NCBI GenBank assembly: GCA_030765065.1
Contig: CM060977.1
Span: 162,201,052 to 162,265,051, forward strand
From: Deroplatys truncata
Taxonomy: Eukaryota; Arthropoda; Insecta; Mantodea; Mantidae
DNA length: 64,000 nt
Direction of reading: 5' to 3'
The position numbers and the translations under genes are program-made. The notes beneath the pieces are model-generated. The model made no database searches, was not told where the DNA came from, and worked only from the letters and a program-made list of their open reading frames with translations. Below, one piece after another: positions 8,405 to 64,000 of this stretch (positions are counted from its first letter, which is position 1; the number at the start of each line of letters is the position of its first letter).

Positions 8405-9256
8405 CTTTTTACTTTCTCTACTACGTATAGTAAGTAGGGGAAGTATTGTATTCCACCCAAAAATTCGATACCGAGATTTCACCGGAAATATATGTTTTGA
8501 GACCCCCTGAATCGAAAAAAAGCATTTTTGGAAACATGTCCGTGTGTGTGTCTGTGTGTCTGTCTGTGAACAGCATAACTCAGAAACGAACAGTCGGATA
8601 AACACCAAACTTGGTATTTAGGTTCAGTATCTTCCAGAGATGGGACACGAAGGTTTTCAAGAAAATTCCCCCACCCCAGACTACCCTTTACAAGGAACAT
8701 TTTTCGAAAATTTTAATTTTTTCAGAAATGGCTCTAACGATTTTGATTAAAATATCATATGTTTAAGACATTGTCATGAGAAATGAAATGTATATCTCGA
8801 ATTTTCTGGAAATGTCTCCAAAAGTATTCTTCATTGTGAACGACTTTTGCATATCTGGTAAACCATAAAGGATGGGCAAAAGTTTACTACACAAAAGATG
8901 TAGATCGCGTTAAAATACACAATTTATGTCATATACATGTTTGTTGTTGAGTGAACCGTTTTCGAGATATTGCTTGTTATTCCCTTAAATTTTCCAACAC
9001 GATACTTTCTCTCACATTCGTTATTCATTTTTTTGTCCTGGACATGCAAAGAGAATGGAATGCGCCACATAGCAACCAGCGCTTAAAATATTTGACTATC
9101 GCTTAAAGCCTACCAATTCCCCTTGCATCTACAAGAAAATTAGCAATAAGATCGACATCTCGATATCTCGATTAACATGAGGTATATGGAGAATAAGCGT
9201 TTGTAAAAATAGTTTGTACAAGAGTAGAGAAAGTCATGTGAGTGTAACACATCAGA
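8405..9256 (-). mobile_element. HINE-like element, copy 2
   Basis: Reverse orientation of the family described at 5081. The 3' end (tttttactttctctactacg on plus) lies at 8405 and the 5' TCTGATG end at 9256. The central microsatellite is read as tgtgtgtctgtgtgtctg on the plus strand. It is near full length. Confidence 0.8.
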
Positions 9257-9633
9257 TTTTTTGTTCTACTACTATATTTTCTATTGGTTACACCCTAATT
9301 TCACAATAACTACTATATTGCTACTAACCCGCCCACAGGCCAAAATGCAACATTTTGTGTATCGTGGCTGCATTCCTCTTAGCATATCTAGACGTTTGTA
9401 TCATTACAGATCTACCAAAATGCTCTGGATAGTTTAAAGACTAATTATTATGCTCGTACTGGCATACGTTTCTTTCATATTAGCGGAGTGGGTTATTGGG
9501 TCTGAAGGATATAAATTCTCGTTATACAAAACACGGCCTTTAAAATCAGTTTCGAGTATGAAGAGATGTCACTGTTGAGGATTATGATCTGTTCCCAATG
9601 CACTCATTAGCCCATTAATATCATGACAGTAAA
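9257..9633. other. Unassigned spacer
   Basis: AT-rich sequence between the Helentron-like element and a more balanced region. Nothing recognisable. Confidence 0.4.
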
Positions 9634-11760: not shown

Positions 11761-11857
11761 TAACACACCAGAAAACAATGACGCGGACACCGATAATAAT
11801 GCATAGAGAAATAGAGAACATTTTCACCGCTTTTGTAATTAATCATAAGAGAAAAAA

Positions 11858-12690
11858 TCTGATGTGTTACACTCACATGACTTTCTCTACTCTTGTACAA
11901 CGTATTTTTACAAACGCTTATTCTCTATATGCTTCATGTTAATCGAGATATCGAGATGTTAATCTTATTGCTAATTTTCTTGTAGATGCAAGGGGAATTG
12001 GCTTTAAGCGTTTAAGAGCTGGTTGCTATGTGGAGTATTCCATTCTCTTTGCATTACCAGGACAAAAAAAAAGAATAACGAATTTGAGAAAAAGTATAAG
12101 TATTGGAAAATTTAAGGGAATAACAAACAATATCTCGAAAATGGTTCACTCAACAAAAAATATGCATACGACATAAATTGTGTATTTTAACGCGATCTAC
12201 ATTTTTTGTGTAGTAAAATTTTGTCTATCTCTTATGGTTTACCAGTTATGCAAAAGTCGTTCACAATGAACACTTTTGGAGACTTTCCCAGAAAATTGGA
12301 GATATACATTTCATTTGTCATGAAAATTTCTTAAACATAAGATATTTTAATCAAAATCGTTAGAGCCATTTTTGAGAAAATTAAAATTTTCGAAAAATGT
12401 TCCATGTAAAGGGTAGTATGGGGTGGGGGGGATTTTTTTGAAAACCTTCATGTCGCATCTCTGGAAGATACTGAACCTAAATACCAAGTTTGGTGTTTAT
12501 CCGAATGTTCGTTTCTGAGTTATGCTGTTCACAGACAGACACACAGACAGACACACAGACACACACGGACATGTTTCCAAAAATGCTTTTTATGGATTCA
12601 GGGGGTCTCAAAACATGTATTTTCGGTATCGAATTTTTGGGTGGAATACAATACTTCCCTTACTTACTATACGTAGCAGAGAAAGTAAAA
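11858..12690 (+). mobile_element. HINE-like element, copy 3
   Basis: Near-complete copy of the family at 5081. The microsatellite is CAGACAGACACA-type. The 3' end is gtagcagagaaagtaaaa, with one change in the hairpin stem. Confidence 0.8.
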
Positions 12691-13334
12691 ATTGGAATAA
12701 GAATTAATGTTCAAGAAATTTTGTTTATATAATATTTAAAACATAAGTAATGAAAGGGTTATCATTTAGAAAACGCTTGTGAAATATTTAGCAATAATGT
12801 CACAGAGAGGGAATTTTTATACCACATACTTTATATAGAAAGGAAATTGAAATTAAAATAAAAATTTGGAATTTGAAAACACATAAAGCATATCAGCTAA
12901 TAAGAAGCACTTGAGACAACATTTTAATATGTCTAACTACATAATTTATATGTTAAACTACCTGAACACAACGCATAAAGGAGCATTCAAACCGATCAAT
13001 TGAAAAGTGCTTATCAAATTAGCTTCCGAAAATTAACAGTAAAAAGGAGGCCAGAGAAGGACTTGGAGTAACTAACCTAAAATGAATAAAAACTTCATTG
13101 TAATCAAAATTACATTTAAGCGAATGTGACTAAAATAATGAAAACTAAATGGGTATCAAATTATTAGCTCTGCATGCAACCAAAATGAAACGCATGTGGA
13201 GACAGTCAACAACCAATAGGATTGTGTAAAATCAGGTTACTACAGAAATATATCTCAATGCTCACAAGCTTGAAGGTGACAGTAGGCGATGAAGACACCC
13301 TTTAACTGCTCGTTACAGAGTAAGGTCGCGTTAG
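12691..13334. other. Unassigned AT-rich sequence
   Basis: No gene, tandem repeat or repeat family recognised. Confidence 0.5.
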
Positions 13335-15867: not shown

Positions 15868-18115
15868 TAACGGAAGGTTACGCTTACGTTAGATTTTTTG
15901 TTTATGTAAGCTTTCGAAAGGTTAGGTTTAGGTTAGTTTTTTTATATAAGCTTACGTTTCTGAATTCACGAAAGGTTAGGTTTAGGTTAGTTTTTTTTAT
16001 ATAAGCTTACGTTTCTGAATTCACGAAAGGTTAGGTTTAGGTTAGTTTTTTTATATAAGCTTACGTTTCTGAATTCACGAAAGGTTAGGTTTAGGTTAGT
16101 TTTTTTTATATAAGCTTACGTTTCTGAATTCACGAAAGGTTAGGTTTAGGTTAGTTTTTTTTATATAAGCTTACGTTTCTGAATTCACGAAAGGTTAGGT
16201 TTAGGTTAGTTTTTTTTATATAACCATAGGTTTCTGAATTACCTAAATATATATATCTTTGTTTTAATTTGTTATCACTGTTTACATCAAAGCACGCGAG
16301 CGAAGCGAGCGTGCGTTCCTAAACTTACGTTTCTGATTCAGGGAGGTTAGGTTAGGTTTAGTTTTTTTTATATCAGCTTACGTTAATGGATTCACGGAAG
16401 GTTAGGTTTAGGTTAGTTTTTTTATATAAGCTTACGTTTCTGAATTCACGAAAGGTTAGGTTTAGGTTAGTTTTTTTTATATAAGCTTACGTTTCTGAAT
16501 TCACGAAAGGTTAGGTTTAGGTTAGTTTTTTTTTATATAAGCTTACGTTTCTGAATTCAGGAAAGGTTAGGTTTAGGTTAGTTTTTTTATATAAGCTTAC
16601 GTTTCTGAATTCACGAAAGGTTAGGTTTAGGTTAGTTTTTTTATATAACCATAGGTTTCTGAGTTACCTTTATATATATCCTTGTTTTAATTTGTTATCA
16701 CTGTTTACATCAAAGCACGCGAGCGAAGCGAGCGTGCGTTCCTAAACTTACGTTTCTGATTCAGGGAGGTTAGGTTAGGTTTAGTTTTTTTTATATCAGC
16801 TTACGTTAATGGATTCACGGAAGGTTAGGTTTAGGTTAGTTTTTTTTATATAAGCTTACGTTTCTGAATTCACGAAAGGTTAGGTTTAGGTTAGTTTTTT
16901 TTATATAAGCTTACGTTTCTGAATTCAGGAAAGGTTAGGTTTAGGTTAGTTTTTTTATATAAGCTTACGTTTCTGAATTCACGAAAGGTTAGGTTTAGGT
17001 TAGTTTTTTTATATAACCATAGGTTTCTGAATTACCTTTATATATATCCTTGTTTTAATTTGTTATCACTGTTTATATCAAAGCACGCGAGCGAAGCTCG
17101 CGTGCGTTCCTAAACTTGCGTTTCTGATTCACGGGAGGTTAGGTTAGGTTTAGTTTTTTTTATATCAGCTTACGTTAATGGATTCACGGAAGGTTAGGTT
17201 TAGGTTAGTTTTTTTATATAAGCTTACGTTTCTGAATTCACGAAAGGTTAGGTTTAGGTTAGTTTTTTTATATAAGCTTACGTTTCTGAATTCAGGAAAG
17301 GTTAGGTTTAGGTTAGTTTTTTTATATAAGCTTACGTTTCTGAATTCACGAAAGGTTAGGTTTAGGTTAGTTTTTTTATATAACCATAGGTTTCTGAATT
17401 AGCTTTATATATATCCTTGTTTTAATTTGTTATCACTGTTTATATCAAAGCACGCGAGCGAAGCGAGCGTGCGTTCCTAAACTTACGTTTCTGATTCACG
17501 GGAGGTTAGGTTTAGTTTTTTTTATATAAGCTTACGTTTCTGAATTCAGGAAAGATTAGGTTTAGGTTAGTTTTTTTATATAAGCTTACGTTTCTGAATT
17601 CACGAAAGGTTAGGTTTAGGTTAGTTTTTTTTATATAAGCATAGGTTTCTGAATTACCTTTATATATATATATATATATATATATATCCTTGTTTTAATT
17701 TGTTACCATTGGTTACATCAAAGCACGCGAGCGAAGCTCGCGTGCGTTCCTAAGCTTACGTTTCTAATTCACGGGAGGTTAGGTTTATTTTTTTTTTACA
17801 TAAGCTTACGTTTGTGGATTCACGGAAGGTTAGGTTTTTTTTTATATAAGCTTACGTTTGAATTCACTAAAGGTTGGTTTTTTATATAAGCTTACGTTTC
17901 TGAATTCATGAAAGGTTAGGTTTAGGTTAGTTTTTTTATATAAGCTTACATTTATGGATTCACGGAAGGTTAGGTTTAGGTTAGTTTTTTTTATATAAGC
18001 TTACGTTTCTGAATTCACGAAAGGTTAGATTTAGGTTAGTTTTTTTTATATAAGCTTACGTTTCCCAATTCACGAAAAGTTAGGTTTAGGTTAGTTTTTT
18101 TATATAAGCATAGCA
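15868..18115 (+). repeat. Higher-order satellite with telomere-like motif
   Basis: Head-to-tail monomers of about 53-56 bp each contain gaattcacgaaaggttagg, the motif GGTTAGGTTTAGGTTAG, a T7-T9 run and atataagcttacgtttctg. Every few monomers an insert interrupts the array, with tatatatccttgttttaatt, tgttatcactgtttacatc and a GC-rich hairpin (gcacgcgagcgaag...gtgc). The hairpins begin at 16292, 16715, 17083, 17450 and 17723, giving higher-order periods of 423, 368, 367 and 273 bp. The first two differ by 55 bp, one monomer. The last kilobase is more degenerate. TTAGG is the common insect telomere repeat, but here it alternates with TTTAGG inside a satellite, so this is an interstitial telomere-like satellite. 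The repeated 74-codon ORF at 17178 is a shadow. Confidence 0.9.
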
Positions 18116-23378: not shown

Positions 23379-24928
23379 TACACTGGTGTGCAAAACCTAA
23401 GTACGAGATGGGTAAAGTAACATAACAAATGAATTACTTGGTGAAAGTAGATGAAGGTGCGGGAGCATGTTGACAGAAGTGTCTCACACGTACACAGAAC
23501 GCTGGACGTAACATGGCGTGAGTGTAGCGAGCCTATATTACCAAAACGGTCTGGTCCCGCAACACGGGGCAGTTGACGAAACAGGACAAGACGGTGTATG
23601 GCAATTAGCGAGCTGTTACGGTGCACTGTAGTGGTATTTTCCATTGCAACATGGCCCGTAGACACCGTTTGGTGTACGTCACACCGGGAAGAATCGTTGA
23701 GAAACTGGAAGAAGAGCGAAGTGTGACGAGTGTTGCTCAGGAGTTTGGAATTACTCACAGCATTGCTTCACGTGCATGGGGAACCTTCCAAACAACAGGC
23801 AACTGCTGTCCCAAGGAGAGATGGTGGTAGACCACGCTCAACTACAGCAGCAGATGACCGCTACATTGTGCAACAGGCAAGAAGGGATCCGCGCCAAACA
23901 GCGGGTGCAATTGCAACCACATTTAACAGGACAGCTAGGCACGCAATCTCACGATACACAGAGGCACGGCGACTGCACAGAGGTGGTCTCTTTTCCCGAC
24001 GGCCAGTACGTTGTGTTCCATTGACATCCACACATCGGTGGTACCGTTTGCGATGGTCCCAGGAGCATCAAAATTGGACTAAAGAGGAATGGGTACGCGT
24101 ACTCTTCTCGGATGAGAGCAGATTCAGTCTAAGTAGTGATTCTTGACGTACCCTCATCTGGCGAGAGGTGGGAACACGTAATGAACCCAGGAACATCCTT
24201 GAACATGATCGTTTTGGTGGTCCGGGTGTTATGGTTTGGGGAGGCATAATGTTGCGGGGGCACCTACTTCCAAATCTTTGAACAATGTACGCTCACTGGT
24301 CAACGTTATTGTGATACTGTACTCCTTCCCCATGTGCGTCTTTTCAGGGGTGCAGTCGGCCCTGACTTCGTTTTTATTGATGCCAATGTGTGACCGCATG
24401 GAACAGTGCAGGTGGAGGTTCTCTTGGAACGAGAGGATAGTCGGCGAATGGACCGGCCTGCCCATTCCCCCGATTTAAATCCTATCGAACACGTGTGGGA
24501 TGCTTTGGGGAGACGCATTGCAGCACATCCACATGCAACAACGACCATCCCACAGTTGTTAACAGCGCTGGTGGAGGAATGGAACGCCCTACCACAAGAA
24601 CTGCTTACCAACCTTGTGGCCAGCATGAGAGCACGATGCAGAGCATGCATTGCTGTCCGTGGTGATCATACACCATTTTAAGCACCATGTATCTGTTTCT
24701 GTAAATCTAGAGAGTCACAACATGTCGTATTGACTTTAGTGTAGCTTATGGTCTATGGATAAAAGTGGCATTTCTGTTAGTCTCATTGCATATTTCGTTT
24801 AGTTGCCTACTGTAGCATACCATAGCAGTTCCCTCTATGTATGATTCAAGTTCCATCGGGCTATATTACTTGGCAGTGTCTCAGCATACGAAGATTACAT
24901 TCGTCATGAGGTTTTGCACACCAGTGTA
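23379..24928 (+). mobile_element. Complete Tc1-like transposon
   Basis: The terminal inverted repeats TACACTGGTGTGCAAAACCT (left) and its exact complement (right) are 20 bp without mismatch. They are flanked by TA at 23377-23378 and 24929-24930, the standard Tc1/mariner target duplication. The total length of about 1550 bp is normal for the family. The transposase inside is broken, so this copy cannot move itself, but its intact ends could still be substrates if active transposase exists elsewhere. Confidence 0.95.
23651..24681 (+). pseudogene. Tc1-like transposase, frame-broken
   Basis: The start at 23651 gives MARRHRLVYVTPGRIVE, an N-terminal helix-turn-helix. After about 50 codons a frameshift near 23810 moves the reading to another frame (GRPRSTTAADDRYI, then the second DNA-binding part with RRDPRQTA). 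The first catalytic Asp is in VLFSDESRF (near 24110). An in-frame TGA follows at 24144-24146. The VMVWGGI block follows in the same frame. The region of the second Asp is damaged near 24300-24400. A further frame change gives the C-terminal SPDLNPIEHVWD, which holds the final Glu of DD34E. The total span is about 340 codons, as expected for Tc1. There are at least two frameshifts and one stop. Confidence 0.93.
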
Positions 24929-26005: not shown

Positions 26006-26062
26006 GTAAAAATAAATGAGTCGAATGATATTAAAAGCCTTCACTTACATCATGGTGGTAAA

Positions 26063-26101
26063 AGATGGACGATCATTTCGAGACTTCAAGGTCTCATCAT
26101 C
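26063..26101 (-). ncRNA. Decayed hammerhead-like fold, left arm
   Basis: Inverted counterpart of the fold at 26884. Stem II GAGAC/GTCTC and GAAA are kept. Stem III has a mismatch (ATGAT against ATCTT). The base preceding TGATGA is again A, so this change predates the duplication of the arms or is a family feature. Confidence 0.4.
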
Positions 26102-26638
26102 GGCAAAGGAGACGACTGAATCTTGCTTCACAACACAAAATGTATCTGACCCATGTGGACGATTGGAAGGACCTCAGGTGGTAGTTTTCATAACTGCTGA
26201 AGGTGAACCATAAGGCTGCTGTCCCAACATCTCTTGTTGTGGAACTAGAAGTAGGATGGGCTCCGTTTTGAACTGTTTTCTTCTGAAGGTGAACCAAAAG
26301 GCGGGTGACGTCATCCAACGGCGGAATTTCAAAATTTATAACTTGTAAATTATTTTTAATAATGAATATTTTTTCCAAAGCATCCAAAATAGATGAATTA
26401 TGTGTGAGTTTTAATAGTTCAATGTATTGACCAATTTCATGTTGTGTATTCCAAAACTGGTGGGACACAGCTTATCAGTTTGTTTTAATTTAATATTTCT
26501 TTGATGATCTTTAAGACGCATTGAAAGGTTCCATTTTGTTTTTCCAATGTAAAACCTGTCACAATGATCACATTTTATTTTATAAATACCAGAAAGAGTT
26601 TTCTTATCTTTGTCATTGACATTTGGCTTATTTAACAA
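26097..26638 (-). pseudogene. GIY-YIG endonuclease domain of a Penelope-like ORF
   Basis: From 26638 downward the reading contains SGIYKIKCDHCDRFYIGKT, with the GIY and YIG motifs and a CCHH-type start (C-x2-C) typical of Penelope GIY-YIG domains. WNLSMRLKDHQRN follows. A frameshift near 26450 moves the rest to the frame with ILDALEKIFI, the usual C-terminal block. The 3' end enters the left arm. In the full protein this domain nicks DNA for target-primed integration. Here it has lost the upstream RT. Confidence 0.85.
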
Positions 26639-26883
26639 ATTATTGATACTGAATCTATTCTGTGGATGACATCACCCGCCTTCTGGTTCACCTTCAGAAG
26701 GAAACAGTACAAGACGGAGCTCATCCTACTTCTAGTTCCACTACACTACAAGAGCTGTCGGGACAGCAGCCTTCTGGTACACCTTCAACAGTTATTAAAA
26801 CTACCACTTGAGGTCCTTCCAATCGTCCACATGGGTCAGATACATTTTGTGTTGTGAAGCAAGATTCAGTCGTCTCCTGTTCC

Positions 26884-26926
26884 GATGATGAGACCTTGAA
26901 GTCTCGAAACGATCGTCCATCGTTTA
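26884..26926 (+). ncRNA. Hammerhead-ribozyme-like fold in the Penelope arm
   Basis: The sequence reads TGATGA, then stem II GAGAC / GTCTC with a 6-nt loop, then GAAA, then stem III ACGAT / ATCGT around loop CGTCC, then T. This is the order of a type I hammerhead, which Penelope-like elements are known to carry. The nucleotide before TGATGA is A where active hammerheads have C, and no convincing stem I was found. It is either a decayed ribozyme or a variant. A second, further-decayed copy is on minus at 26101-26063. Confidence 0.5.
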
Positions 26927-27034
26927 CCCCATGATGCAAGTGAAGGCTTTTCATATTAATCGACTCATTTATTTTATCAATTGACTCTTCATTGTTAATA
27001 TTGTCCTATTTCAACTTTAATAATAATGCAAAGT

Positions 27035-27821
27035 ATATTGAAACTCGGGGAACTCTTTTCTTTTATGTTACACGCACGCGCGTTGGTTAAGGACACGATG
27101 TTTAGCGTGGGGCTACGAGGTAGTCAGCAACTGGACTCGGGCGAGTGTAGACACAATCGCCGGCTCTCCCAGCCCGCAAGACCAAGGCGACGATCATGGC
27201 TGGGCAAAGCAAGTGGGAGCGTCATGCCTCATCCTGTAAAATGTAGCTTAGTTTTCCTTTAATAAATTTTGCATATGTGTGTATATGTTTTGAGTTATCT
27301 ATCTTCTTCCCATTCTTTTATATGTATGTACTCTGAATTAAGCTATCCACCTTTTCATTCTTCCTTATGTGAGTGCCCAAGCTTTTTAAGCTATCGTTCC
27401 TTTCATATTCCCTTTGCATAGAAAACTTTAGATGAGTTCCTGGGGATCCTCAGCCCGCCAAGCGAGCGCTTATAATAATGATGCAGAATGCCTTGTTTTT
27501 CTGTTTCTTCCTTTGCTCTCCTCAGAAATACACGCAGGAATAGGCAGTTTCACCACCTCCTGATTCGATGTCCGATTGACTCCAGAAAACCTCGCCATGC
27601 CTACGGAGAGAGAAGGTTTTGCCCCCTTCCCCGGGGAAGTAGAGCCGGTGGTCCCGTGTCGTAGATTCACGGCATATAAAAGAGCCTCAAGCCTGATAAG
27701 GAGGCCTCTGAGCAAAACTTCCGGTCTTTCAAGCCAGTATAGAATGGGACGCTAGGAACCACAGCAGCTAACAGTACAACATCATGCCGCATAGTCGGTT
27801 TTAATATGTAGGTATGCCACA
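27035..27821 (+). repeat. 5' LTR of the gypsy-type element (5'-truncated)
   Basis: It matches the 3' LTR from the segment with gttggttaaggacacgatg onward. AATAAA lies near 27261, and the end ggtatgccaca corresponds to ggtatgttaca in the 3' LTR. After the end comes taatggtggagg; TGG at this point fits a tRNA primer-binding site, though the tRNA was not identified. A SINE piece sits inside at 27640-27745 and is absent from the 3' LTR. Confidence 0.8.
27640..27745 (+). repeat. SINE fragment inside the 5' LTR
   Basis: The segment ggaagtagagccggtggtcc and the following ccgtgtcgtagatt match the SINE body at 30765-30850. The 3' LTR reads straight through this point (ctttccccacttttctact), which shows it was inserted after LTR formation. 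Confidence 0.7.
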
Positions 27822-34346: not shown

Positions 34347-35410
34347 TTAGGTTTTAGTAAACCTTTCGGGAAGATCCATGACAGATACTATTGGATAGCC
34401 ATGAAGAAGGATATTGAAAAGTTTGTCAAAACATGCCAAAGTCGTCAAACCCGCATAGATTCTACTAATTAGAAACCAGCAGGATTATTGCAGCCCATCC
34501 CGGTTACAGGTATTGGAGAACGTTGGGGCATTGACCTCTTAGGGCCATTGCCAAGGTCTAATTTTGTAATAACGATATTATAATAGCCACGGAGCACACT
34601 GGCCGTTGGATCGAGGGCTCTGCGCTGCCAATTGCTACCATACTTCGTGTTACTAAGTTCATTCTTCAACACATTATTTGTAAGCATGAAGCCCCTGCAA
34701 CTTTACTTTCAGATCGTGGAGCTGTATTCTCAGCGATGTTTTTCAAGAGTTGCTAAGATACATGGACACCACCCCTAATTACAGCAATGCATATCACACA
34801 GCTTGAAATGGCCTTATGGAAAGATTGCATCAAACCTCAATTAACATGTTAAGCCATTGGGATAGAGTATTGCCACATGTTGTTTTCTCTTATAATGCTA
34901 GTGTACACGAGACTACTAAGCATACATCCTTCTTCTTGACCAATGGACGTGAACCTACTTTATCTCACCAGGTGCCACTTCAGAAAAACTTGAGTTCTAT
35001 TTATGGATGCTCTTTAACTGTAGTAGTCCTTAGCATCCCATTCTATATTGGGCGTGAAAGACTGGTAATTTTGTCCAGAGGCCTCTATGAATGCTACTTC
35101 CAACGACCTGTTTATAAAGTAAACGCGAGAAGATATTCAGAAAGCTCGTGAGCGGGTAATTAACATCATATCTCAACAGCAATTTGTTCAGATGTGTAAT
35201 TTTGATAGAAAGCATAGAGATGTTTCTTTATAGGTTGGTCAACTAGTGAAAGTTTTCACCCCATTCGTAAATAAGGGAAGTGCACCAAGCTGTTCCATAG
35301 ATTCCTTACACGATTTGAAATTGTGCGACAAGTTATACCCCACTTACTTACATGGACCTTACCCCTCTGGACCTTATAGAGCATAAAGTGGTCGTATCAC
35401 TTGGATGATC
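34347..35410 (+). pseudogene. Integrase remnant (gypsy-type)
   Basis: Blocks in order: YYWIAMKKDIEKFVKTCQ (zinc-binding region), IGERWGIDLLGPLPR (first catalytic Asp, near 34510-34550), TEHTGRWIEGSALP in another frame, LSDRGAVFS (second Asp, near 34713), then MERLHQTSINMLSHW (catalytic Glu helix, 34816 on) and the PHVVFSYNASVHETT block. This is a typical Ty3/gypsy D,D-35-E integrase layout. No chromodomain was seen. At least three frameshifts. Confidence 0.85.
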
Positions 35411-40640: not shown

Positions 40641-40651
40641 CACCGGCGTTT

Positions 40652-41497
40652 TCAATTTCTCTACTACGTATAGTAAGTACGGGAAGTATTGTATTCCACC
40701 CAAAAATTCGATACCGAGATTTCACCCAAAATACATGTTTTGAGGCCTCCTGTATCCAAAAAAAGGTTTTTCTGGAAACATATCCGTGTGTGTTTGTCTG
40801 TCTGTGTGTGTGTGTGTGTGTGTCTGTGTGTCTGTGAACAGCATAACTCAGAAACGAACAGTTGGCTAAACACCAAAATTGGTATTTAGGTTCACTATCT
40901 TCCAGAGATGCGACACGAAGGTTTTCAAGAAAATCCCTCCACCTCAGATTACCCTTTACATGGAACAGTTTTCGACAATTTTAATTTTCTTTAAAATGCC
41001 TCTAACGATTTTGATTAAAATATCATATGTTTAAGATATTTTCATGACAAATGAAATGTATATCTCGAATTTTCTGGGAATGTCTCCAAAAGTATTCTTC
41101 ATTGTGAACGACTTTTGCATAACTGGAAACCATAAGAGATAGACAAAATTTTACTACACAAAAAATGTAGATCGCATTAAAATACACAATTTATGTCATA
41201 TACATTTTTTTGTTGAGTGAACCATTTTCAGATATTGCTTGTTATTCCCTTAAATTTTTGAATATTTATTTTCTCAAATGGGAATTCGTTATTCATTTTT
41301 TGTCTTGGATATGCAAAGAGTATTAATCTGTGGCAAAGAGAATGGTGCTGCGCATAGCAACCAGCTATTAAGAGTAATGTCTATGCTTAAAGGCTACTGT
41401 ATTTCTATATTGCCCTTGTGAATATATATTCCCCTTACATCTACAAGAAAATTAGCAATAAGATAGAGTATGCAAATGTTTATCTCGACACATCAGA
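40652..41497 (-). mobile_element. HINE-like element, copy 4 (5' internal deletion)
   Basis: The 3' end at 40652 is intact. The 5' TCTGATGTGT is at 41497, but the next ~100 bp, including the 5' hairpin partner and actttctctac, are deleted. The body contains the subfamily marker gatatgcaaagagtattaat shared with copies 6, 7 and 8. Confidence 0.75.
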
Positions 41498-43563: not shown

Positions 43564-43790
43564 TCTGATGTGTTACACTCACATGACTTTCTCTACTCTT
43601 GTACAAACTATTTTTACAAACGCTTATTCCCCATGTGCTTCATGTTAATCGAGATATCGAGATGTTAATCTTATTGCTAATTTTCTTATAGATGCAAGGG
43701 GAATTGGTAGGCTTTAAGCTATAGACAAATATTTTAAGAGCTGGTTGCTATGTGGAGTATTCCATTCTCTTTGAATTACCAGGGCAAAAA
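43564..43790 (+). mobile_element. HINE-like 5' fragment, nested pair 1
   Basis: The first ~227 bp of the element run from TCTGATGTG to ttaccagggc plus an A run. The next full copy begins in that A run (43796). The remainder of this copy is not found after the second copy. Confidence 0.8.
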
Positions 43791-43795
43791 AAAAT

Positions 43796-44613
43796 TCTGA
43801 TGTGTTACACTCTCATGACTTTCTCTGCTCTTATACAACCCATTTTTACAAACGCTTATTCTCCATATGCTTCATGTTAATCGAGATATCGAGATGTTAA
43901 TCTAATTGCTAATTTTCTTGTAGTTGCAAGGGGAATTGGCTTTAAACGTTTAAGAACTGGTTGCTATGTAGAATATTCCATTCTCTTTGCATTACCAGGA
44001 CAAAAAAATGAATAACGAATTTGAGAAACAGTATAAGTATTAGAAAATTTTAGGGAATAACAAGCAATATCTCGAAAATGATTCACACAACAAAAAAATG
44101 TATACGACATAAATTGTGTATTTTAACGCGACCTACATTTTTTGTGTAGTAAAATTTTGTCTATCTCTTATGGTTTACCAGTTATGCAAAAGTCGTTCAC
44201 AATGAAGAACACTTTTGGAGACATTCCCAGAAAATTCGAGATATACATTTCATTTGTCATGAAAATATCTTAAACATATGATATTTTAATCAAAAGCGTT
44301 AGAGCCATTTTTGAGAAAATTAAAATTTTCGAAAAATGTTCCATGTAAGGGTAATCTGGAGTGAGGGTATTTTCTTGAAAACCTTCGTGTCGCATCTCTG
44401 GAAGATACTGAACCTAAATACCAAGTTTGGTGTTTATCCGACTGTTCGTTTCTGAGTTATGCTGTTCACAGAAAGACACACACAGACACACACATGCTTT
44501 ATATGCATTAGGTGCACCTCAAAACATGTATTTCCTGTGAAATCTCGGTATCGAATTTTTGGGTGGAATGCAATACTTCCCCTACTTACCATACGTAGTA
44601 GAGAAAGTAAAAA
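43796..44613 (+). mobile_element. HINE-like element, copy 5
   Basis: Nearly complete and directly head-to-tail with the fragment at 43564. Its microsatellite is short (acacacagacacacaca) and some sequence after it is missing. Confidence 0.8.
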
Positions 44614-44879: not shown

Positions 44880-45215
44880 TCTGATGTGTTGCACTCACAT
44901 GACTTTCTCTACTCTTGTACAAACTATTTTCACAAACTCTTATTCTCCATCTATTTCATATTAATCGAGATAAACATTTGCAGAAACGATCTTTTGATAT
45001 GAAGAGAGAATTACATTTTACACATAGGGACTAGTTCTAAAAATATTTGACTATCGCTTAAGGCGTACTATGTTCCCCTTGTTTTGTAATTGCAAGCAAA
45101 GTATAGAAATGCAGTAGCCTTTAAGCATCGACATATATCTTAATAGCTGGTTGCTAGGTGCAGCACCATTCTCTTTGCCACAGATTAATACTCTTTGCAT
45201 ATCCAAGAGAAAAAA
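44880..45215 (+). mobile_element. HINE-like 5' fragment, nested pair 2
   Basis: The first ~335 bp of the longer subfamily end at catatccaagagaaaaa. This is the same A-run position where pair 1 is broken. The next copy starts at 45216. Confidence 0.8.
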
Positions 45216-46131
45216 TCTGATGTGTTACACTCACATGACTTTCTCTACTCTTGTAAAAACTATTTTTACAAACGCTTATTCTCCATCTACTTCATGTTAA
45301 TCGAGATAAACATTTGCAGACTCTATCTTATTGCTAATTTTCTTGTAGATGTAAGGGGAATATATACTTACAAGGGCAATGTAGAAATGCAGTAGCCTTT
45401 AAGCACATACATATCTTTTAATAGCTGGTTGCTAGGTGTAGCACCATTCCCTTTGCCACAGATTATAACTCTTTGCATATCCAAGACAAAAAATGAATAA
45501 CGAATTCCCATTTGAGAAAATAAGCATTGAACAATTTAAGGGAATAACAAGCAATATCTCGAAAATGGTTCACTCAACAAAAAATGTATATGACATAAAT
45601 TGTGTATTTTAACGCGATCTACATTTTGTGTGTAGTAAAATTTTGCCTATCTCTTATGGTTTACCCGTTATGCAAAAGTCGTTCACAATGAAGAATACTT
45701 TTGGAAACATTCCCAGAAAATTCGAGATATGCATTTTATTTGTCATGAAAATATTTTAAACATATGATATTTTAATCAAAATCGTTTGAGCCATTTTTGA
45801 GAAAATTAAAATTTTCGAAAAATGTTCCATGTAAAGGGTAATCTGGGGTGGGGGCATTTTCTTGAAAACCTTTGTGTCGCATCTCCGGAAGATACTGAAC
45901 CTAAATACCAAGTTTGGTGTTTATCCGACTGTTCGCTTATGAGTTATGCTGTTCACAGACAGACACACACACAGGCAGACACACACACACACACACGGAC
46001 GTGTTTCCAAAAATGCTTTTTTTGGATTCAGGGGTCTCAAAACGTGTATTTCCGGTGAAATCTCGGTATCGAATTTTTGGGTGGAATACAATACTTCCCC
46101 TACTTACTATACGTAGTAGAGAAAGTAAAAA
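45216..46131 (+). mobile_element. HINE-like element, copy 6
   Basis: Near-complete long-subfamily copy. It has a long CA/CAGA microsatellite near 45958-46000 and intact 3' hairpin and terminus. Confidence 0.85.
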
Positions 46132-49570: not shown

Positions 49571-50637
49571 CTAGAAAGTCGTCACCATGCTTTGGACTAA
49601 GTGCAGTAATACTCCTCTCTGTAGAACAATTAACTGTTTGGTTGAAGGTTTATGGTAGTGTCCATTATTTTGTGACTCTTATGTTCTTATATACGTTTTG
49701 TGAAATAAAATGAAAATTAAATAACGAGATATTTAGTTTCATACTTTGTATAAGAATTTATCATCACCTAGTAAGTCACATGTATAGAATGGTGTTAACC
49801 GAGAACCAAAATATGAACAGAATACCCTCTATAGATCATCACTCAAAGGTAACTTCCTGTTTTCATTTGTTTTATGAAGCAACACCGTCACTCTCCCTTG
49901 AGACTTGTCAAGACATTACAGCAGATTGCTTTGTGTTCTTTCAGTCGAGCTATCTGCTCCCATAGGAGGTCATTGTGAAGATAAAATCTTTAGACTTATG
50001 TGGGGCAACAAACACATGTTCCTCTTTAAAGATTATTAGTTTATGAATGTTCATAGAAGCAATATTATAATGCGTTTCTGGCAACCGTAAAACAAAACAA
50101 CTATTTGATCAACAATTTCTAACCAAGTATTCATATGGTACGTGCATTTAAAACGACTTTTAGTGTTTGTCCTCAAAATACAGTACCAACCAGCAGCAAA
50201 ATTAATGGCTCTGTTACACAAAAAACATTTTTTTTCTCGAAGAACCTACGTGGCAGTGTGAGCCAAAGAAAGGTTATTTCTTCTATTAACAGTTGCGTAT
50301 ACTTTTCCTGGCCTGAAAGTTCCTAGGTGTTTCTCCCCCTTCATGTTTCTAAAACTGTTGAGTACTATATAAGGAGTGTACATATTAATATGTTTTCCCA
50401 TTAAGTATGACAGTTATATAAAAGAGGGCTAGAATAAAGACAATAGTTTCACTGTCATTCAAATGTTAGGTTTCCTAAACCATCATCAGTACTGCAATAT
50501 TCAGAACTTTTTAACATAACCTAAGAGGGTTCTCTGAACTCACTTCAAAGTGCAATGCTGTTGCACTCGTGGCAAAAATGCGATCCCGTTTACGTAATAT
50601 GAAACGTGCATAGCATCACCGGAAGCAATAGACATAA
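49571..50637. other. Unassigned sequence
   Basis: No gene, tandem repeat or family recognised. Confidence 0.4.
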
Positions 50638-51533
50638 TCTAATGTGTTACACTCACATGACTTTGTCTACTCTTGTACAAACTATTTTTACAAACGCTTA
50701 TTCTCCATCTACTTCATGTTACACGAGATAAACTTTTGCAGACTCTATCTTATTGCTAAGTTTCTTGTAGATGTAAGGGGAATATATATTTACAAGGGCA
50801 ATATAGAAATACAGTAGCCTTTAAGCACATATATATCTCTTAATAGCTGGTTGCTAGGTGCAGCACTATTCCCTTTGCCACAGATTAATACTCTTTGCAT
50901 ATCAAAGACAAAAAAATGAATAACGAATTCCCATTTGAGAAAATAAGTATTGAAAAATATAAGGGAATAACAAGCAATATCTCGAAAATGGTTCACTCAA
51001 CAAACAAAATGCATATGACATAAATTGTGTATTTTAACGCGATCTACATTTTTTGTGTTGTACAATTTTGTCTATCTCTTATGGTTTACTAGTTATGCAA
51101 AAGTCGTTCACAATGGAGAATAGTTTTGGGGACATTCCCAGAGAATTCGAGATATACGTTTCATTTGTCATAAAAATATCTTAAACATATGAAATTTTAA
51201 TCAAAATCGTTACAGCCATTTTTGAGAAAATTAAAATTTTTGAAAAACGTTCCATGTAAAGGATAATCTGGGGAGGGGGGATTTTGTTGAAAACCTTCGT
51301 GTGGCATCTCTGGAAGATACTGAACCTAAATACCAAGTTTGATGTTTATCCGACTGTTCGTTTCTGAGTTATGCTGTTCACAGACAGACACACACCGACG
51401 GAGATGTTTCCAAAATACTTTTTTGGATTCAGGAGACCTCAAAACATGTAGTTCCGGTGAAATCTAAGTATCGAATTTTTGGGTGGAATGCAATACTTCC
51501 CCTACTTACTATACGTAGTAGAGAAAGTAAAAA
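50638..51533 (+). mobile_element. HINE-like element, copy 8
   Basis: Long subfamily, near full length. The first bases are TCTAATGTG (G to A in the terminal motif). Unlike other copies it is not preceded by an A run. Confidence 0.8.
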
Positions 51534-56797: not shown

Positions 56798-57370
56798 TTA
56801 CCTGACTGCGAGCTTCAGTGCATATGAAAAGCTTAGTTGCTGACGTCTGACGTGAAGAGGCAGTTCATTGGTTTTAATTTGCATGTTATTAATGGGAATT
56901 GTGTGAAATGAGCCAAGGATTTTTCTTAAAGCAGCAGACTGTATTGGGTCAAGCATTTTAGGGTCTGTAGGGCTAGCTGAAGCATAAACGATGGAGCCAC
57001 AGTCTAGCCTAATACGAATTATTACGTAAATATGTAGAACTGTGTTGTCAGCATCCCAGTTTTTGTGAGCCAATGCTTTCACGATATTCTAATGGCGAGT
57101 GAAACGTTTTTTAGAAGTTTCATGTGAGGAATCCAGGTTAATTTTGGGTCTAATAAAATTCCCAGGATTTTCAACGAGTCTGTTGCCTCTATAACATTAG
57201 AAGGTTTCTTGAGATCAAGTTTCTCTCAAGGCATTTATTTTTAGAACTGGATAATTTAAAGCCAGTAGAATTAACGCATTTTTATAAGCTTATCAATCGA
57301 TTCTTGACGAACTGCTTCTGTGGTTTCAATGTTTCTGCCTTTACAAATCTGGTGATATCATCTGTAATTA
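56798..57370 (-). pseudogene. LINE reverse transcriptase C-terminal fragment
   Basis: The minus-strand reading ends with LDPIQSAALRKILGSFHTIP, then NELPLHVRRQQLSFSYALKL. Upstream it has DCGSIVYASAS and, in other frames, STGFKLSSSKNKC and KILGILLDPKLTW. The order (F-x-x-S-K-T/N-K, L-G-x-x-x-D-x-x-L-x-W, D-Y-G-x-x-x-Y, E-P-P-L-x-x-R-R) is that of Jockey/I-group LINE RT thumb regions. Frames are interrupted above 57082. Confidence 0.8.
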
Positions 57371-57374
57371 AATT

Positions 57375-57456
57375 GATTTTTATTTATGGACGCTCTTTAA
57401 CTACTATGGTTTCTATTGTTCCAGTCTATATTGGGCATGAAAGACCGGAAATTTTA
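57375..57456 (+). pseudogene. Short gypsy pol fragment, cut by the palindrome
   Basis: The segment with tttatttatggacgctcttt and tctatattgggcatgaaaga matches the gypsy-type element at 34996-35070, with small differences. The similarity stops exactly where the palindrome arm begins. Confidence 0.75.
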
Positions 57457-57867
57457 CTCAGCATCTAATGACGTGTTTTCCTCCATGTGTAATGTATGAA
57501 AAATTGAGTTTCTCATCCGCTAGTTGCACAGATTTTCTCCGGCAGGAGCTCATGCTAAAACTAAAAGAAATTAAATGAATACGGGAATGCTAACGCTCGA
57601 AGGAATTAAAAGCGAATGAATGAATTCATAACACGCAGCTATGTATATATTCAGTGTGAGGACGCCGGAGGGAATAGCAATCTTTGCATAGCAGCGGGAA
57701 AGGATGCTCTCTGGAAACATTTGTGGAGAAGGAGGCTCTCAACAGAACATGGCGAATGCGAGCATGGAAAAAGGATGCTCTCTGGGAACATTCGTGGAAA
57801 AAGGATGCTCTCAACAGAACATAACGATTGCGAGCATGGAAAAAGGATGCTCTCTGGAAACGTTTGT
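57457..57867 (+). repeat. Left arm of the 3.3-kb palindrome
   Basis: It is the inverted complement of 60377-60778. The outer ~150 bp are identical between arms. The inner part has two closely spaced differences (near 57680-57690). It contains about 2.3 tandem copies of a ~72-bp unit in which ggatgctctc recurs at alternating spacings of 30 and 42 bp. The outer 90 bp are the antisense copy of codons 1-31 of the zinc-finger ORF at 60687. Confidence 0.95.
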
Positions 57868-60376
57868 GGAAAAGGCTGCGTAACAATGGAATCACGCTAT
57901 GTAACAAAGGAATCACGTTATGTAACAAAGGAATCACGCTATGTAACAAAGGAATCACGCTATGTAACAAAGGAATCGCGCTATGTAACAAAGGAATCAC
58001 GCCATGTAACAAAGGAATCGCGCTATGTAACAAAGGAATCGCGCCATGTAACAAAGGAATCGCGCCATGTAACAAAGGAATCGCGCTATGTAACAAAGGA
58101 ATCGAGCCATGTAACCAAGGAATCGCACCATGTAACAAAGGAATCACGTCATGTAACAAAGGAATCGCGCCATGTAACAAAGGAATCACGCCATGTAACA
58201 AAGGAATCGCGGTATGTAACAAAGGAATCGCGGAATGTAACAAAGGAATCGCGCCATGTAACAAAGGACTCACGCCATGTAACAAAGGAATCGCGCTATG
58301 TAACAAAGGAATCGCGCCATGTAACAAAGGAATCGCGCCATGTAACAAAGGAATCGCGGTATGTAACAAAGGAATCGCGCCATGTAACAAAGGCATCGCG
58401 CTATGTAACAAAGGAATCGCGCTATGTAACAAAGGAATCGCGCCATGTAACAAAGGAATCGCGCTATGTAACAAAGGAATCGCGCTATGTAACAAAGGAA
58501 TCGCGCCATGTAACAAAGGAATCGCGCCATGTAACAAAGGAATCGCGCCATGTAACAAAGGAATCGCGCCATGTAACAAAGGAATCACGCCATGTAACAA
58601 AGGAATCGCGGTATGTAACAAAGGAATCGCGCCATGTAACAAAGGAATCACGCCATGTAACAAAGGAATCGCGCCATGTAACAAAGGAATCGCGCTATGT
58701 AACAAAGGAATCGCGCTATGTAACAAAGGAATCGCGCTATGTAACAAAGGAATCGCGCCATGTAACAAAGGAATCACGCTATGTAACAAAGGAATCGCGC
58801 CATGTAACAAAGGAATCGCGCCATGTAACAAAGGAATCGCGGTATGTAACAAAGGAATCGCGCCATGTAACAAAGGAATCACGCCATGTAACAAAGGAAT
58901 CGCCACATGTAACAAAGGAATCGCGCTATTTAACAAAGGAATCGCGCCATGTAACAAAGGAATCACGCTATGTAACAAAGGAATCGCGCCATGTAACAAA
59001 GGAATCGCGCCATGTAACAAAGGAATCACGCCATGTAACAAAGGAATCGCGGTATGTAACAAAGGAATCGCGCCATGTAACAAAGGAATCACGCCATGTA
59101 ACAAAGGAATCGCGCCATGTAACAAAGGAATCACGGTATGTAACAAAGGAATCGCGCTATGTAACAAAGGAATCGCGCCATGTAACAAAGGAATCGCGGT
59201 ATGTAACAAAGGAATCGCGCCATGTAACAAAGGAATCGCGCTATGTAACAAAGGAATCGCGCTATGTAACAAAGGACTCACGGTATGTAACAAAGGAATC
59301 GCGGTATGTAACAAAGGAATCGCGCCATGTAACAAAGGAATCGCGCCATGTAACAAAGGAATCGCGCTAGGAATCGCGCCATGTAACAAAGGAATCGGAC
59401 TATGTAACAAAGGAATCGCGCCATGTAACAAAGGAATCGCGCTATGTAACAAAGGAATCGCGCTATGTAACAAAGGACTCACGCCATGTAACAAAGGAAT
59501 CGCGCCATGTAACAAAGGAATCGCGCCATGTAACAAAGGAATCGTGCCATGTAACAAAGGAATCGCGCTATGTAACAAAGGACTCACGCCATGTAACAAA
59601 GGAATCGCGCCATGTAACAAAGGAATCGCGCCATGTAACAAAGGAATCGTGCCATGTAACAAAGGAATCACGGGATGTAACAAAGGAATCACGGTATGTA
59701 ACAAAGGAATCGCGCTATGTAACAAAGGAATCGCGCCATGTAACAAAGGAATCGCGCCATGTAACAAAGGAATCGCGCTATGTAACAAAGGAATCGCGCC
59801 ATGTAACAAAGGAATCGCGCCATGTAACAAAGGAATCGCGGTATGTAACAAAGGAATCGCGCCATGTAACAAAGGCATCGCGCTATGTAACAAAGGAATC
59901 GCGCTATGTAACAAAGGAATCGCGCTATGTAACAAAGGAATCGCGCCATGTAACAAAGGAATCGCGCTATGTAACAAAGGAATCGCGCTATGTAACAAAG
60001 GAATCGCGCCATGTAACAAAGGAATCGCGCCATGTAACAAAGGAATCGCGCCATGTAACAAAGGAATCGCGCCATGTAACAAAGGAATCACGCCATGTAA
60101 CAAAGGAATCGCGGTATGTAACAAAGGAATCGCGCCATGTAACAAAGGAATCACGCCATGTAACAAAGGAATCGCGCCATGTAACAAAGGAATCGCGCTA
60201 TGTAACAAAGGAATCGCGCTATGTAACAAAGGAATCGCGCTATGTAACAAAGGAATCGCGCCATGTAACAAAGGAATCACGGTATGTAACAAAGGAATCA
60301 CGCTATGTAACAAAGGAATCGCGCTATGTAACAAAGGAATCGCGCTATGTAACAAAGGAATCACGCTATGTAACAA
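57868..60376 (+). repeat. 21-bp tandem array, about 119 units
   Basis: The unit is aaaggaatcgcgccatgtaac. Variation is confined mainly to a G/A position in atc(g/a)cg and to c/t/g just before the atg. One short 12-bp unit occurs near 59360. A block of about 20 units is duplicated: the rare variant aaaggcatcg appears near 58390 and 59871 with the same following variant order. A 5-unit block is repeated near 59470 and 59580. Because 21 is a multiple of 3 and the unit lacks stops in several frames, very long ORFs appear on both strands (up to 928 codons). These are regarded as by-products. Confidence 0.97.
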
Positions 60377-60778
60377 ACGTTGCCAAAGAGCATCCTTTTT
60401 CCATGCTCGCAATCGTTATGTTCTGTTGAGAGCATCCTTTTTCCACGAATGTTCCCAGAGAGCATCCTTTTTCCATGCTCGCATTCGCCATGTTCTGTTG
60501 AGAGCCTCCTTCTCCACAAATGTTTCCAGAGAGCATCCTTTCCCGCTGCTATGCGAAGATTGCGATTCCCTCCGGCGTCCTCACACTGAATATATACATA
60601 GCTGCGTGTTATGAATTCATTCATTCGCTTTTAATTCCTTCGAGCGTTAGCATTCCCGTATTCATTTAATTTCTTTTAGTTTTAGCATGAGCTCCTGCCG
60701 GAGAAAATCTGTGCAACTAGCGGATGAGAAACTCAATTTTTCATACATTACACATGGAGGAAAACACGTCATTAGATG
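60377..60778 (+). repeat. Right arm of the 3.3-kb palindrome
   Basis: Inverted partner of the left arm. It contains the upstream region and first 31 codons of the zinc-finger ORF, and it ends within the zinc finger between the adjacent cysteine codons. Since the ORF continues as a coherent protein, this arm is probably the original and the left arm the copy. Confidence 0.95.
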
Positions 60779-61154
60779 CTGTATATGCGAGCGGATTTTT
60801 AAGAATCGTTCTTTGTCAAGATTTAAGCTTCATAGAGCAACATGTTATACTGGATCGACTCTCTCTCCTACACTCGAAGATCCGAAGATGTATAGAGGGG
60901 GATGTTATACCGGATCAAGCCTCTGTCCTTCACTGGAGACTACTGATGGTGAAAAATCTGGATACAGCGGGAGTCGCGAGAATATGAAATCTTCATATGA
61001 TGATGATTCAGTGATATCTACGCTTGAAAATCCAAATAGACTAGTAAATATATTGAGGTTACTAATTGCATCGAGGAATGCTGGTAATAATAGTCACACA
61101 CAAGAGATTGAGGAGATTATAAGTAAGCTGAAAGCTTCTAAAGTTATAGCATGA
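60687..61154 (+). CDS. C2HC zinc-finger small protein
   Basis: An intact 155-residue ORF that begins MSSCRRKSVQLADEK. Residues ~30-52 carry C-x2-C-x14-H-x3-C with a Phe four residues after the second Cys (RCCICERIFKNR...HRATC), a C2HC zinc-finger-like fold probably binding DNA or RNA. Residues ~53-85 contain an internal duplication of the motif CYTGS-x-L-x-P-x-LE. The C-terminal ~40 residues (NILRLLIASRN...EIEEIISKLK) are helical and charged, probably a dimerising helix. A sequence like an acceptor (tttcttttag) precedes the ATG by 8 bases, so this may be a downstream exon. AATAAA at 61411 is a plausible poly(A) signal. The family was not recognised; it may be a host gene or a domesticated or accessory transposon gene. 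Confidence 0.6.
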   Translation: MSSCRRKSVQLADEKLNFSYITHGGKHVIRCCICERIFKNRSLSRFKLHRATCYTGSTLSPTLEDPKMYRGGCYTGSSLCPSLETTDGEKSGYSGSRENMKSSYDDDSVISTLENPNRLVNILRLLIASRNAGNNSHTQEIEEIISKLKASKVIA

Positions 61155-62181
61155 CAGGATCGAGAAATTGTGTTAATCAATTACAGTCATGGTTAACAGG
61201 AACTTTGAAATATCAAAACCTTGTACTTATAAAATACATCATCCAGACATTCTTGAGATGTTTAGTTTTTTATGGATAATGCAGGTCTCTTTCTGTGTGA
61301 TGTATATGATTATATAACTGAGTGTTTTAGAATGTCTAGACTATCACCTTTGTCTTTAGGAAATATGTATGTTTTTTGTATATGAATGTAATAGGAAAAT
61401 GTTTATAAAAAATAAATGTTGTTTATATTACATAGACCTCATTTTTTTATTAATCTTTTTATACACCTCATATCATACAGCCCAATATTAAGATGGTTCT
61501 GGCTTCTAGATTCCCATTTATTCAAGTCTCTTTCAGTAATAGTTCATGTAGCATCAATGTTTTTAAGATAGGCATTCTCCTTAAACAATTATGAAATTAT
61601 TTATGAAATCAATGGTATAGGCTGGTATAGCAGTAATAATGAGTACATAATTATATATATATTATTGTTATATTCTACACACGCGGATGTTTTTTTCCAT
61701 GTATGTTCCGCACTGGTGCAATTCTTCATTGATTGAGGTTACTGGGAGGTGTTGAGAATGTTCCTATCACATTTCTGTTTATGATGTTTTAAGCTATCTC
61801 GTTCTTCCTCTTCATTTACATTCAGCTGGGCATTCCTGTAACACACATTCACATTATTTGCAACTTCTTGTAGGTATATACTTCGATGTGGAGAATCACT
61901 GCAAGGGGTATTAAAGTTCTTTCTGCACGAAATCACACAGAGTACAATCTAGACATTATTTACACATATTTTTTAATACAGTGATGCATGCTTTTGACAA
62001 CTGCTATCCTGCTGGAAATTATTTGAAACTTGCTGTAGGTATCTGCTTTGAGGTAAAGAATCAGTGAATAGACTATTAAACTTCTTTCTGCAGATCCTCG
62101 CTCAGACTACATCCTGGACGTTATTTTTTTTTACATATTGATGTATACTTTAGACAAATGTTATCCTACTGAAGTGCGAAT
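61155..62181. other. Intergenic region with a 165-bp duplication
   Basis: It lies between two convergent genes. Segments 61853-62017 and 62018-62180 are diverged tandem copies sharing attatttg(c/a)aac, tgtaggtat, attaaa(g/c)ttctttctgca and the end gacaa(c/a)tg(c/t)tatcct. Minus-strand reading of the first copy gives an open 65-codon stretch, but the second is broken, so coding is not supported. Confidence 0.6.
61411..61416 (+). promoter_or_regulatory. Poly(A) signal for the zinc-finger gene
   Basis: AATAAA about 255 bases after the stop codon, followed within 30 bases by a GT-rich/T-rich stretch. Confidence 0.45.
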
Positions 62182-63181
62182 TTATAAACTCAACGAATGT
62201 AACTCTAAATGAAGCTTTGAAAGGATAGCTGAATTATTTCTACAAACCTTAATAGGAAGAAAAGACAATTTACATGTCTTAAACTTGCCGGCTGGTACTA
62301 CTCCATGATATACCATTTGAAACTTCCCAGGCATTTCCTCCAACTGTTGGCTTGTTAGGGTTGAATATCTTGTCGGGAGAAACACTTGCTTATTCTCTAA
62401 AAGTGCAACGACTCTAGCACCGTATCGAGTATCAATTTTTCTTAAGGATTTTATATTATAAGGCTCCTCTGGCTGAAGATCTTGTAGTCTTTGAACGGCT
62501 GGGTAAATGCTACCCTCAGCCAATGTGTTAAGTTGAGATGTCAAACTTTCTGCATTAGGAAGAGAAAAAAACATATTCTTTATTAGAGAATGTGTTGCAT
62601 AACAAAAATTTCATTTATTTGAAAGTTACAAACTTATTAACTTTTTTCTGAAAATGATAATATGTGTAAATATAATTGAGGTTCTGATTCACTAATGAAG
62701 TTCATTAAGTACTGTATTTTTCAATTTAAATGTTTTAATATAATGTAGATATTTACTTTGCTAGAGCGAATGATTCGCGCAACAGACTTTTTGTAATATT
62801 CTAAAGCAAAAACGTTAATAAGGTATTCAAATAATTGTATTTTCTCCAAAAAGGAATATAATTCACTCTGTGAAATCCTGTATTTAAATATCTGGAATAA
62901 TAATTACTCAACAAGGTGAATACTTAACTAAATTGTTCCCATTTTGAGAATTCGCGCAGTTAGCTATTAAATGTAGAATAAGCTTGCCTAAAATGAATAC
63001 TTAACTAAACTGTTCACATTTCAGAAAATTCACTTGTCTAGCTATTAACTTTTAGAATGCTCAGCTATTCGCATATAAATGCCATGCATTAAAAACAAGA
63101 ACGCGAATATAAGTTAAATGTACAGAGTAATAATTTAACTTTTAAAGTAAATGAAGTGTTTTGTTACAACTTACCAGACAT
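62182..63181 (-). CDS. Two-exon small protein gene, function unknown
   Basis: Exon 1 (63181-63175) contributes only ATGTCTG, followed by a consensus donor GTAAGT. The 625-bp intron ends with a T/C-rich tract (ttttttctcttcctaatgcag). Exon 2 (62549-62182) then continues in frame: MSESLTSQLNTLAEGS and on to a stop, about 124 residues. A longer unspliced reading would translate the intron's polypyrimidine tract and is not preferred. The middle has KIDTRYGARVVALLENKQVF and LPTRYSTLTSQQLEEM, a beta-rich pattern. I have seen similar small proteins repeatedly in insect genomes; an OB-fold-like nucleic-acid-binding role is only a guess. The upstream sequence has a TATA box and a CCAAT box. It is convergent with the zinc-finger gene. 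Confidence 0.7.
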
Positions 63182-63247
63182 GATGTTCGTTGAAATTTCA
63201 CTTTGAAAGAGAAAAGTTTGCAGAGATCTTAGCTCGCTGTGTTGTCA

Positions 63248-63357
63248 CAATACAGTGAAATCGCTGGGGAAGCTACTGCTTTTATATCGCTTCGCCTGAT
63301 AAAAATCTGAAGGGGTGAGAGGTGTGACGTTATATAATACAGCAATTTTGATTGGCT
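63248..63357 (-). promoter_or_regulatory. Core promoter of the two-exon gene
   Basis: On the minus strand TATAAAAG lies at 63286-63279. An initiator-like TCACT is at 63258-63254, placing the A about 30 bases from the TATA start. A CCAAT box is at 63355-63351 (about -95), with a CRE-half-like ACGTCA near 63330. The predicted start gives a 5' UTR of about 75 bases before ATG 63181. Confidence 0.6.
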
Positions 63358-63649
63358 ACTCCAAAAATTCGAGAAGGAGAGGGAAATGCTAGCCTCGCAC
63401 AGGGACATTTCGTAAGCAAGTCTAAACCCGTTATGGGGGAAACCATCGCTCACGCCAGCGTTCCTTAAGGGGAATGCTTCTGCGTATGACGCTAGGAAAT
63501 AAAAAATATATTTTATTTTTTACATTTACCGCTAAAAATTCATTGTTAATTATTGTTACATTACCAAATTAATCACAGAGCGAAAATAATGTATTGTTTC
63601 TGTAGATATAATTTTCCTCGAACCAGCAACCTTTCGATTGTGAATAGAC
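63358..63649. other. Unassigned upstream sequence
   Basis: No gene or repeat recognised. Confidence 0.4.
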
Positions 63650-63790
63650 ACGTTACAGATGTTTAAAGAACGTCTGATGCTATGTGATGGCTTTATAATT
63701 CTATTCTCTATGCATTACCACGGGAAAAAACGAATAGCGAGTTACCGCTTGAGAAAAGTTAAAAGTATTTGAAAATTTAAACCAATATCA
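63650..63790 (+). mobile_element. Old HINE-like fragment
   Basis: Diverged internal sequence (attctctatgcattaccacg, gaatagcgagttaccgcttg, aaatttaaaccaatatc). It is interrupted by the younger copy at 63796 just after caatatc. Confidence 0.5.
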
Positions 63791-63795
63791 AAAAA

Positions 63796-64000
63796 TCTGA
63801 TGTGATACACTCACATGGCTTTCTCTACTCTTGTACAAACTATTTTTACAAGCACTTATTCCCTATATGCTTCATGTTAATCGAGATATCGAGATGTCAA
63901 TGTTATTGGTAATTTTCATGACGATACAATGTGAATATGATAGGTTTTAAGCGATAGTCAAATATTTTAACGCTGGTTGCTATGTGGTGCATTCCATTCT
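63796..64000 (+). mobile_element. HINE-like element, copy 9, cut by the window end
   Basis: It starts TCTGATGTGATACACTCACA and continues collinear with copy 1 up to the last base of the window. Confidence 0.8.

Follow-up and report, generated by a model that had tools for sequence, protein, structure and literature searches.

Introduction

In the part of the work on human inverted duplications that we draw on (PMC3907307), single-copy spacers span 766-70,466 bp with a median of 3,428 bp, and inverted microhomology of 2-8 bp was found in 13 of the 21 sequenced junctions, which was explained by a fold-back of DNA. Another route to long inverted repeats is the foldback transposon, and the nearest satellite-linked element of this kind that we found is Tetris of Drosophila virilis. 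According to the sections of its description used here (PMC4079207), Tetris occurs in several copies, has target-site duplications of 8-10 bp, and carries inside its arms the repeats of ~220 bp that became satellite. Finally, newborn hairpin RNA (hpRNA) loci of Drosophila simulans are described, in the portion of the source considered here (PMC10317233), as partial gene copies that make an inverted repeat beside the gene, the copied part being the 5' region in one case.

Here we analyse a locus of Deroplatys truncata that invites comparison with all three. It lies in a stretch of 64 kb (the window), where two inverted arms enclose a 21-bp satellite (Table 1). With the human fold-back duplications, as characterised in those parts of the source (PMC3907307), it shares the inverted copies, the single-copy spacer of a few kb, and the inverted microhomology of a few bp at the spacer end. 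It differs from them in that its arms are 409 bp long, whereas the human cases with a disomic spacer are large duplications, in that its spacer is a tandem satellite, and in that it lies between other repeats in a window without sign of terminal deletion. With Tetris, on the same partial basis (PMC4079207), it has in common an outer unique part, inner tandem repeats, and an association of satellite arrays with inverted repeats; unlike Tetris, it has no target-site duplication, an open frame runs over one of its ends, and the satellite makes up its loop. Like the D. simulans hpRNA loci in the account cited (PMC10317233), it includes a partial copy of a putative gene forming an inverted repeat by that gene, but its promoter words point away from the repeat.

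Table 1. Coordinates of the features of the locus and of related repeats in the window
Feature	Position	Strand	Description
Short dispersed repeat at left boundary	57370-57461	.	Other copies: 34987-35072; 27708-27771 (reversed)
Left arm	57459-57867	-	409 nt; repeats, in inverse orientation, the start of the right-hand frame and the part upstream of it, including the 72-bp repeats, the promoter words, and codons 1-31
Truncated frame in left arm	57458-57553	-	31 codons identical to the right frame, then stop
Left promoter words	57617-57649	-	TATATA at 57649, Inr-like TCATTC (A at 57621 or 57617)
72-bp tandem repeat, left arm	57699-57873	.	2.4 copies
12 bp before satellite	57868-57879	.	Left side only; first part resembles the 72-bp repeat
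21-bp satellite	57880-60377	+	~119 direct units, single orientation
Inner right junction	60370-60377	.	Satellite GTAACAAA joined to arm ACAAACG
Right arm	60373-60781	+	Continuous with reading frame
Right promoter words	60591-60623	+	TATATA at 60591, Inr-like TCATTC (A at 60619 or 60623)
Open reading frame	60687-61154	+	155 codons plus stop; ATG inside right arm
Dispersed repeat family copies	5075-5936, 8406-9262, 11852-12700, 40649-41488, 43789-44613, 45204-46131, 50626-51533, 63790-64000		

Results

Two nearly identical arms and a one-way loop

The inverted repeat that had been predicted at 57457-60778 is real, and ordinary in kind. Its ends had been placed correctly to within 3 bases, and the arms, estimated at ~405 bp, measure 409 bp. 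They agree at 405 of the 409 positions (99% complementary), with four mismatches at 57676, 57685, 57854, and 57858, which bears out the predicted identity of ~99% and fits the recent origin that had been suggested. Ongoing gene conversion between the arms, offered as the alternative, may have played a part. The 72-bp tandem repeat was also correctly noticed, with ~2.4 copies in each arm. The arms are separated by 2,505 nt, and the description of the whole as a palindrome holds for the facing arms and fails for the loop, where the units all point one way. A scan of the window for inverted pairs (minimum arm length 60 bp, maximum distance 6 kb, seed 16) gave 26 pairs. The one at 57459/60781 is the longest of them and, among the 25 longest of the 26, the most nearly exact, the runner-up reaching 96%. 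No third copy of the arm was found in the 64-kb window. A second close inverted pair (26009-26317 and 26663-26975) is 91% identical over 314 bp, with its arms ~345 bp apart.

The right arm continues into a reading frame

The right arm is not a free end, as it runs on into an open reading frame. The frame is open over 60651-61154, has its first ATG at 60687, passes the arm boundary at 60781, and continues for 123 codons beyond it. None of 2000 dinucleotide shuffles of these 123 codons stayed open, a figure to be read knowing that the stretch was picked for being open. An AATAAA-type signal lies downstream, at 61411. Besides the 31 codons of the left arm, there is no second copy of the frame in the window. 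The frame is probably a small real gene.

The predicted protein of 155 residues contains a C-x2-C-x14-H-x3-C motif that straddles the arm boundary. We take this motif to fit a BED-type finger, the label being a guess, and Pfam gave no BED-type finger match for the protein at E up to 10. The only Pfam hit of the frame was Utp13 (E 0.013 and 0.011), which is under its cut-off and which we took as chance, as we did PI3-kinase, the best match in the PDB (E 0.032). The first 62 or 78 residues had no match in Pfam, and the peptide pattern of the frame matched five stretches in viral contigs, none confirmed as a relative. No homologue was found in Pfam, solved structures, or viral contigs, and the single-sequence structure model of the protein is poor (mean pLDDT 39.3). 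Within the frame, two adjacent 60-bp copies at 60840-60959 repeat the motif CYTGS; the excess of differences between them at third positions is only slight (10 of 25), too little to demonstrate selection on the protein.

Promoter words face outward in both arms

The same promoter words are present in both arms and face outward, i.e., leftward in the left arm and rightward in the right one. The distance between TATATA and TCATTC fits that of a TATA-Inr core promoter. When both strands of the 64-kb window are counted, there are five TATA-Inr pairs 28-32 bp apart, four of which are in the arms, two per arm; when the arm was shuffled by mononucleotides, 12 of 5000 sequences contained such a pair. 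The right promoter most likely serves the putative gene and the left one is most likely a relic. The left copy of the frame ends at a stop codon formed at the arm boundary, and the left promoter would yield a peptide of 31 residues at most.

The left boundary lies in a short dispersed repeat

The left boundary had been described as cutting into a gypsy fragment. It does fall within a repeat: the ~90 bp to the left of the arm are one of three copies of a short dispersed repeat found in the window. The gypsy label was not confirmed, as three pieces of the flank gave nothing in Pfam up to E 1. The minus strand of the left flank resembles what we take to be a remnant of a non-LTR (jockey-like) reverse transcriptase. 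A piece of the window at 34.8 kb is presumably gypsy-like, and Pfam likewise gave nothing for it up to that E value.

The arm starts with CAG (57459-57461), which is a 3-bp match with the copies of the dispersed repeat. The copy at 27.7 kb matches through CTCAG and the one at 35 kb also has CAG at this place, so that repeat and arm share the CAG. The match is weak, because 6.1% of random joins reach at least 3 bp and the repeat copies compared are diverged.

Microhomology and derived changes at the inner right junction

On the inner right side, the satellite abuts the arm directly, and ACAAA (60373-60377) constitutes an inverted microhomology of 5 bp. In 200,000 random joins of the window, inverted microhomology of at least 5 bp arose in 0.64% and of at least 3 bp in 6.1%. 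Two of the four arm mismatches, 57854 and 57858, are within 14 bp of this junction, and these two can be polarised with the other copies of the 72-bp repeat, unlike those at 57676 and 57685. At these sites, the other two 72-bp copies either have the left arm's letter or at any rate lack that of the right arm, which occurs in neither of them; this indicates that the right arm is the changed (derived) one. These changes are few (n = 2) and gene conversion could have shifted them.

The satellite

The ~119 copies of a 21-bp unit that had been predicted between the arms are there. GTAAC marks 118 unit starts, the last of them at the arm junction, and the 117 spacings are of 21 bp in 115 cases, 42 bp in one, and 33 bp in one. 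Counted within the window, the satellite is present once, between the arms and in a single orientation. Compared with the consensus, its outermost units have 3, 3, 2, and 2 differences on the left and 3, 2, 1, 1, and 2 on the right, and most inner units have 0-2. The longest exact repeat inside the array measures 384 bp, with its copies spaced 1503 bp apart. This implies that the array grew at least partly in blocks.

A derivation of the satellite from the arm or from the 72-bp unit found no support in local alignments, which were unremarkable against shuffled units: with an edge variant of the unit as query, 159 of 500 shuffled units scored at least as high as the real one in sense, and 485 of 500 in antisense. 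The end-to-end joining of two arm-plus-satellite units was ruled out, since the orientation of the satellite never switches and a simple meeting of two such units is incompatible with this constancy. Open frames of 929 codons traverse the satellite on each strand, and we rejected a protein-coding meaning for them because a stop-free 21-bp unit holds a frame open by itself. The exact satellite pattern had no match in viral contigs or in bacterial and archaeal genome contigs.

Other features of the window

The whole window gave nothing with Rfam at gathering scores or with a tRNA scan. A complex tandem array occupies 15915-18109, with units of ~54-55 bp containing GGTTAGGTTTAGGTTAG and a higher-order period of 368 bp over part of it. 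A family of dispersed repeats of up to ~0.9 kb is present in both orientations, its longer pairs being 87-92% identical and its last copy cut by the window end. The plus strand at 23727-24143 encodes a fragment of a Tc1/mariner-type transposase (Pfam HTH_Tnp_Tc3_2, E 4e-15). On the minus strand, 62185-62610 holds an open frame of 142 codons, with no Pfam match above cut-off and, in viral contigs, 25 matching stretches, none confirmed as a relative.

Discussion

We consider, with moderate confidence, that the locus arose when the 5' part of a putative gene was duplicated in inverse orientation by fold-back or a template switch, with the satellite as spacer and the left side cut off. The mirror-image copy would most likely have originated in an accident of DNA repair, rather than through a jumping gene. 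We infer the fold-back step and the order of events as follows. The process would have involved 1) a small gene (60687-61154) with tandem repeats upstream of its promoter as the starting point; 2) a broken or stalled end within the 21-bp satellite, which would have folded back; 3) pairing of the folded end, via ACAAA/TTTGT, with the 72-bp repeat of the neighbouring arm; 4) extension of the paired end by outward copying of the arm; 5) a product in which the gene's 5' end stands twice, in opposite orientations, on either side of a satellite spacer that keeps one direction; 6) truncation of the left copy 31 codons into the frame, either by a second join at the shared CAG or by a later deletion; and 7) enlargement of the satellite through its own exchanges. 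The polarity of the changes bears on this order. If the right arm is the newer one, the loss of the left gene copy at the CAG join must be a later event, because it is the right side that holds the intact frame and a second loss on the left is then required. The reverse order is possible too: the gene side would be old, and the satellite would have been turned round by two template switches.

The original prediction likened the structure to foldback transposons, and a DNA transposon of this type (of the Tetris, Galileo, or FB kind), beside the gene or carrying it, would account for the satellite as its middle domain. The anatomy of the arms agrees with this: they are 99% alike, they are inverted repeats of 409 bp with ~2.4 internal units of 72 bp each, and, with tandem repeats on the inner side of a unique outer part, they resemble Tetris, as far as it is described in the sections used (PMC4079207). 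The ends of the structure argue in the opposite direction. Target duplications had been suggested as something to look for, and the sequences abutting the outer ends share no direct repeat of 2-12 bp, as against the 8-10 bp given for Tetris in the same sections (PMC4079207); the longest direct match between the 20-bp outer flanks is of 5 bp (ATTTT) and out of register, random pairs having a mean of 4.0. The right end lies inside a frame that no shuffle kept open, so that the outer ends are not both boundaries with unrelated DNA beside them. The left flank has no match in 60782-64000, and no inverted-repeat partner of the left end stood out in 61155-64000 (best score 10, ten shuffles giving 9-13). 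Nor does the window contain a further copy of the arm. We regard a transposon as unlikely.

Long satellites and arms that are 99% identical are difficult for assembly, and this is what speaks for an artefact, in which the second arm would come from one-arm reads collapsed through the satellite or from a foldback read. Such an error would sit poorly with the details of the locus. A one-way loop of 2.5 kb is not expected from a missed-adapter palindrome, the left side has its own 12 bp adjoining the satellite, the arms differ at four sites, and the edge units of the satellite are unlike on the two sides. We find an artefact quite improbable. A further reading concerns the present role of the locus: read-through of both arms would give a 409-bp duplex and siRNAs against the gene or its paralogues. 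In the account cited above, one D. simulans hpRNA case likewise has the 5' end of a gene copied inversely beside it (PMC10317233). Here the loop is long and repetitive, and because both promoters face outward, away from the hairpin, its transcription would require a third promoter outside. A hairpin-RNA locus is thus a candidate that we hold to be very improbable, and one that could represent a later use of a fold-back duplication.

If the fold-back duplication is what took place, the locus would be a small, base-resolved example of how a single repair event can produce a divergent second promoter together with an inverted partial copy of a gene. Such material has been seen to give rise to hairpin-RNA silencers, and there is a slight chance that the locus is a young candidate for a self-targeting one, where the inverted 5' end of a finger-like gene, read from outside, would yield an RNA duplex directed at the gene or at paralogues of it. 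On that improbable reading, the satellite between the outward promoters could be a shared array of binding sites, which the finger protein itself might recognise. More broadly, under the fold-back reading the locus would show how a palindrome with a satellite loop can mimic a transposon without being one, the main clue being the reading frame that crosses its boundary.
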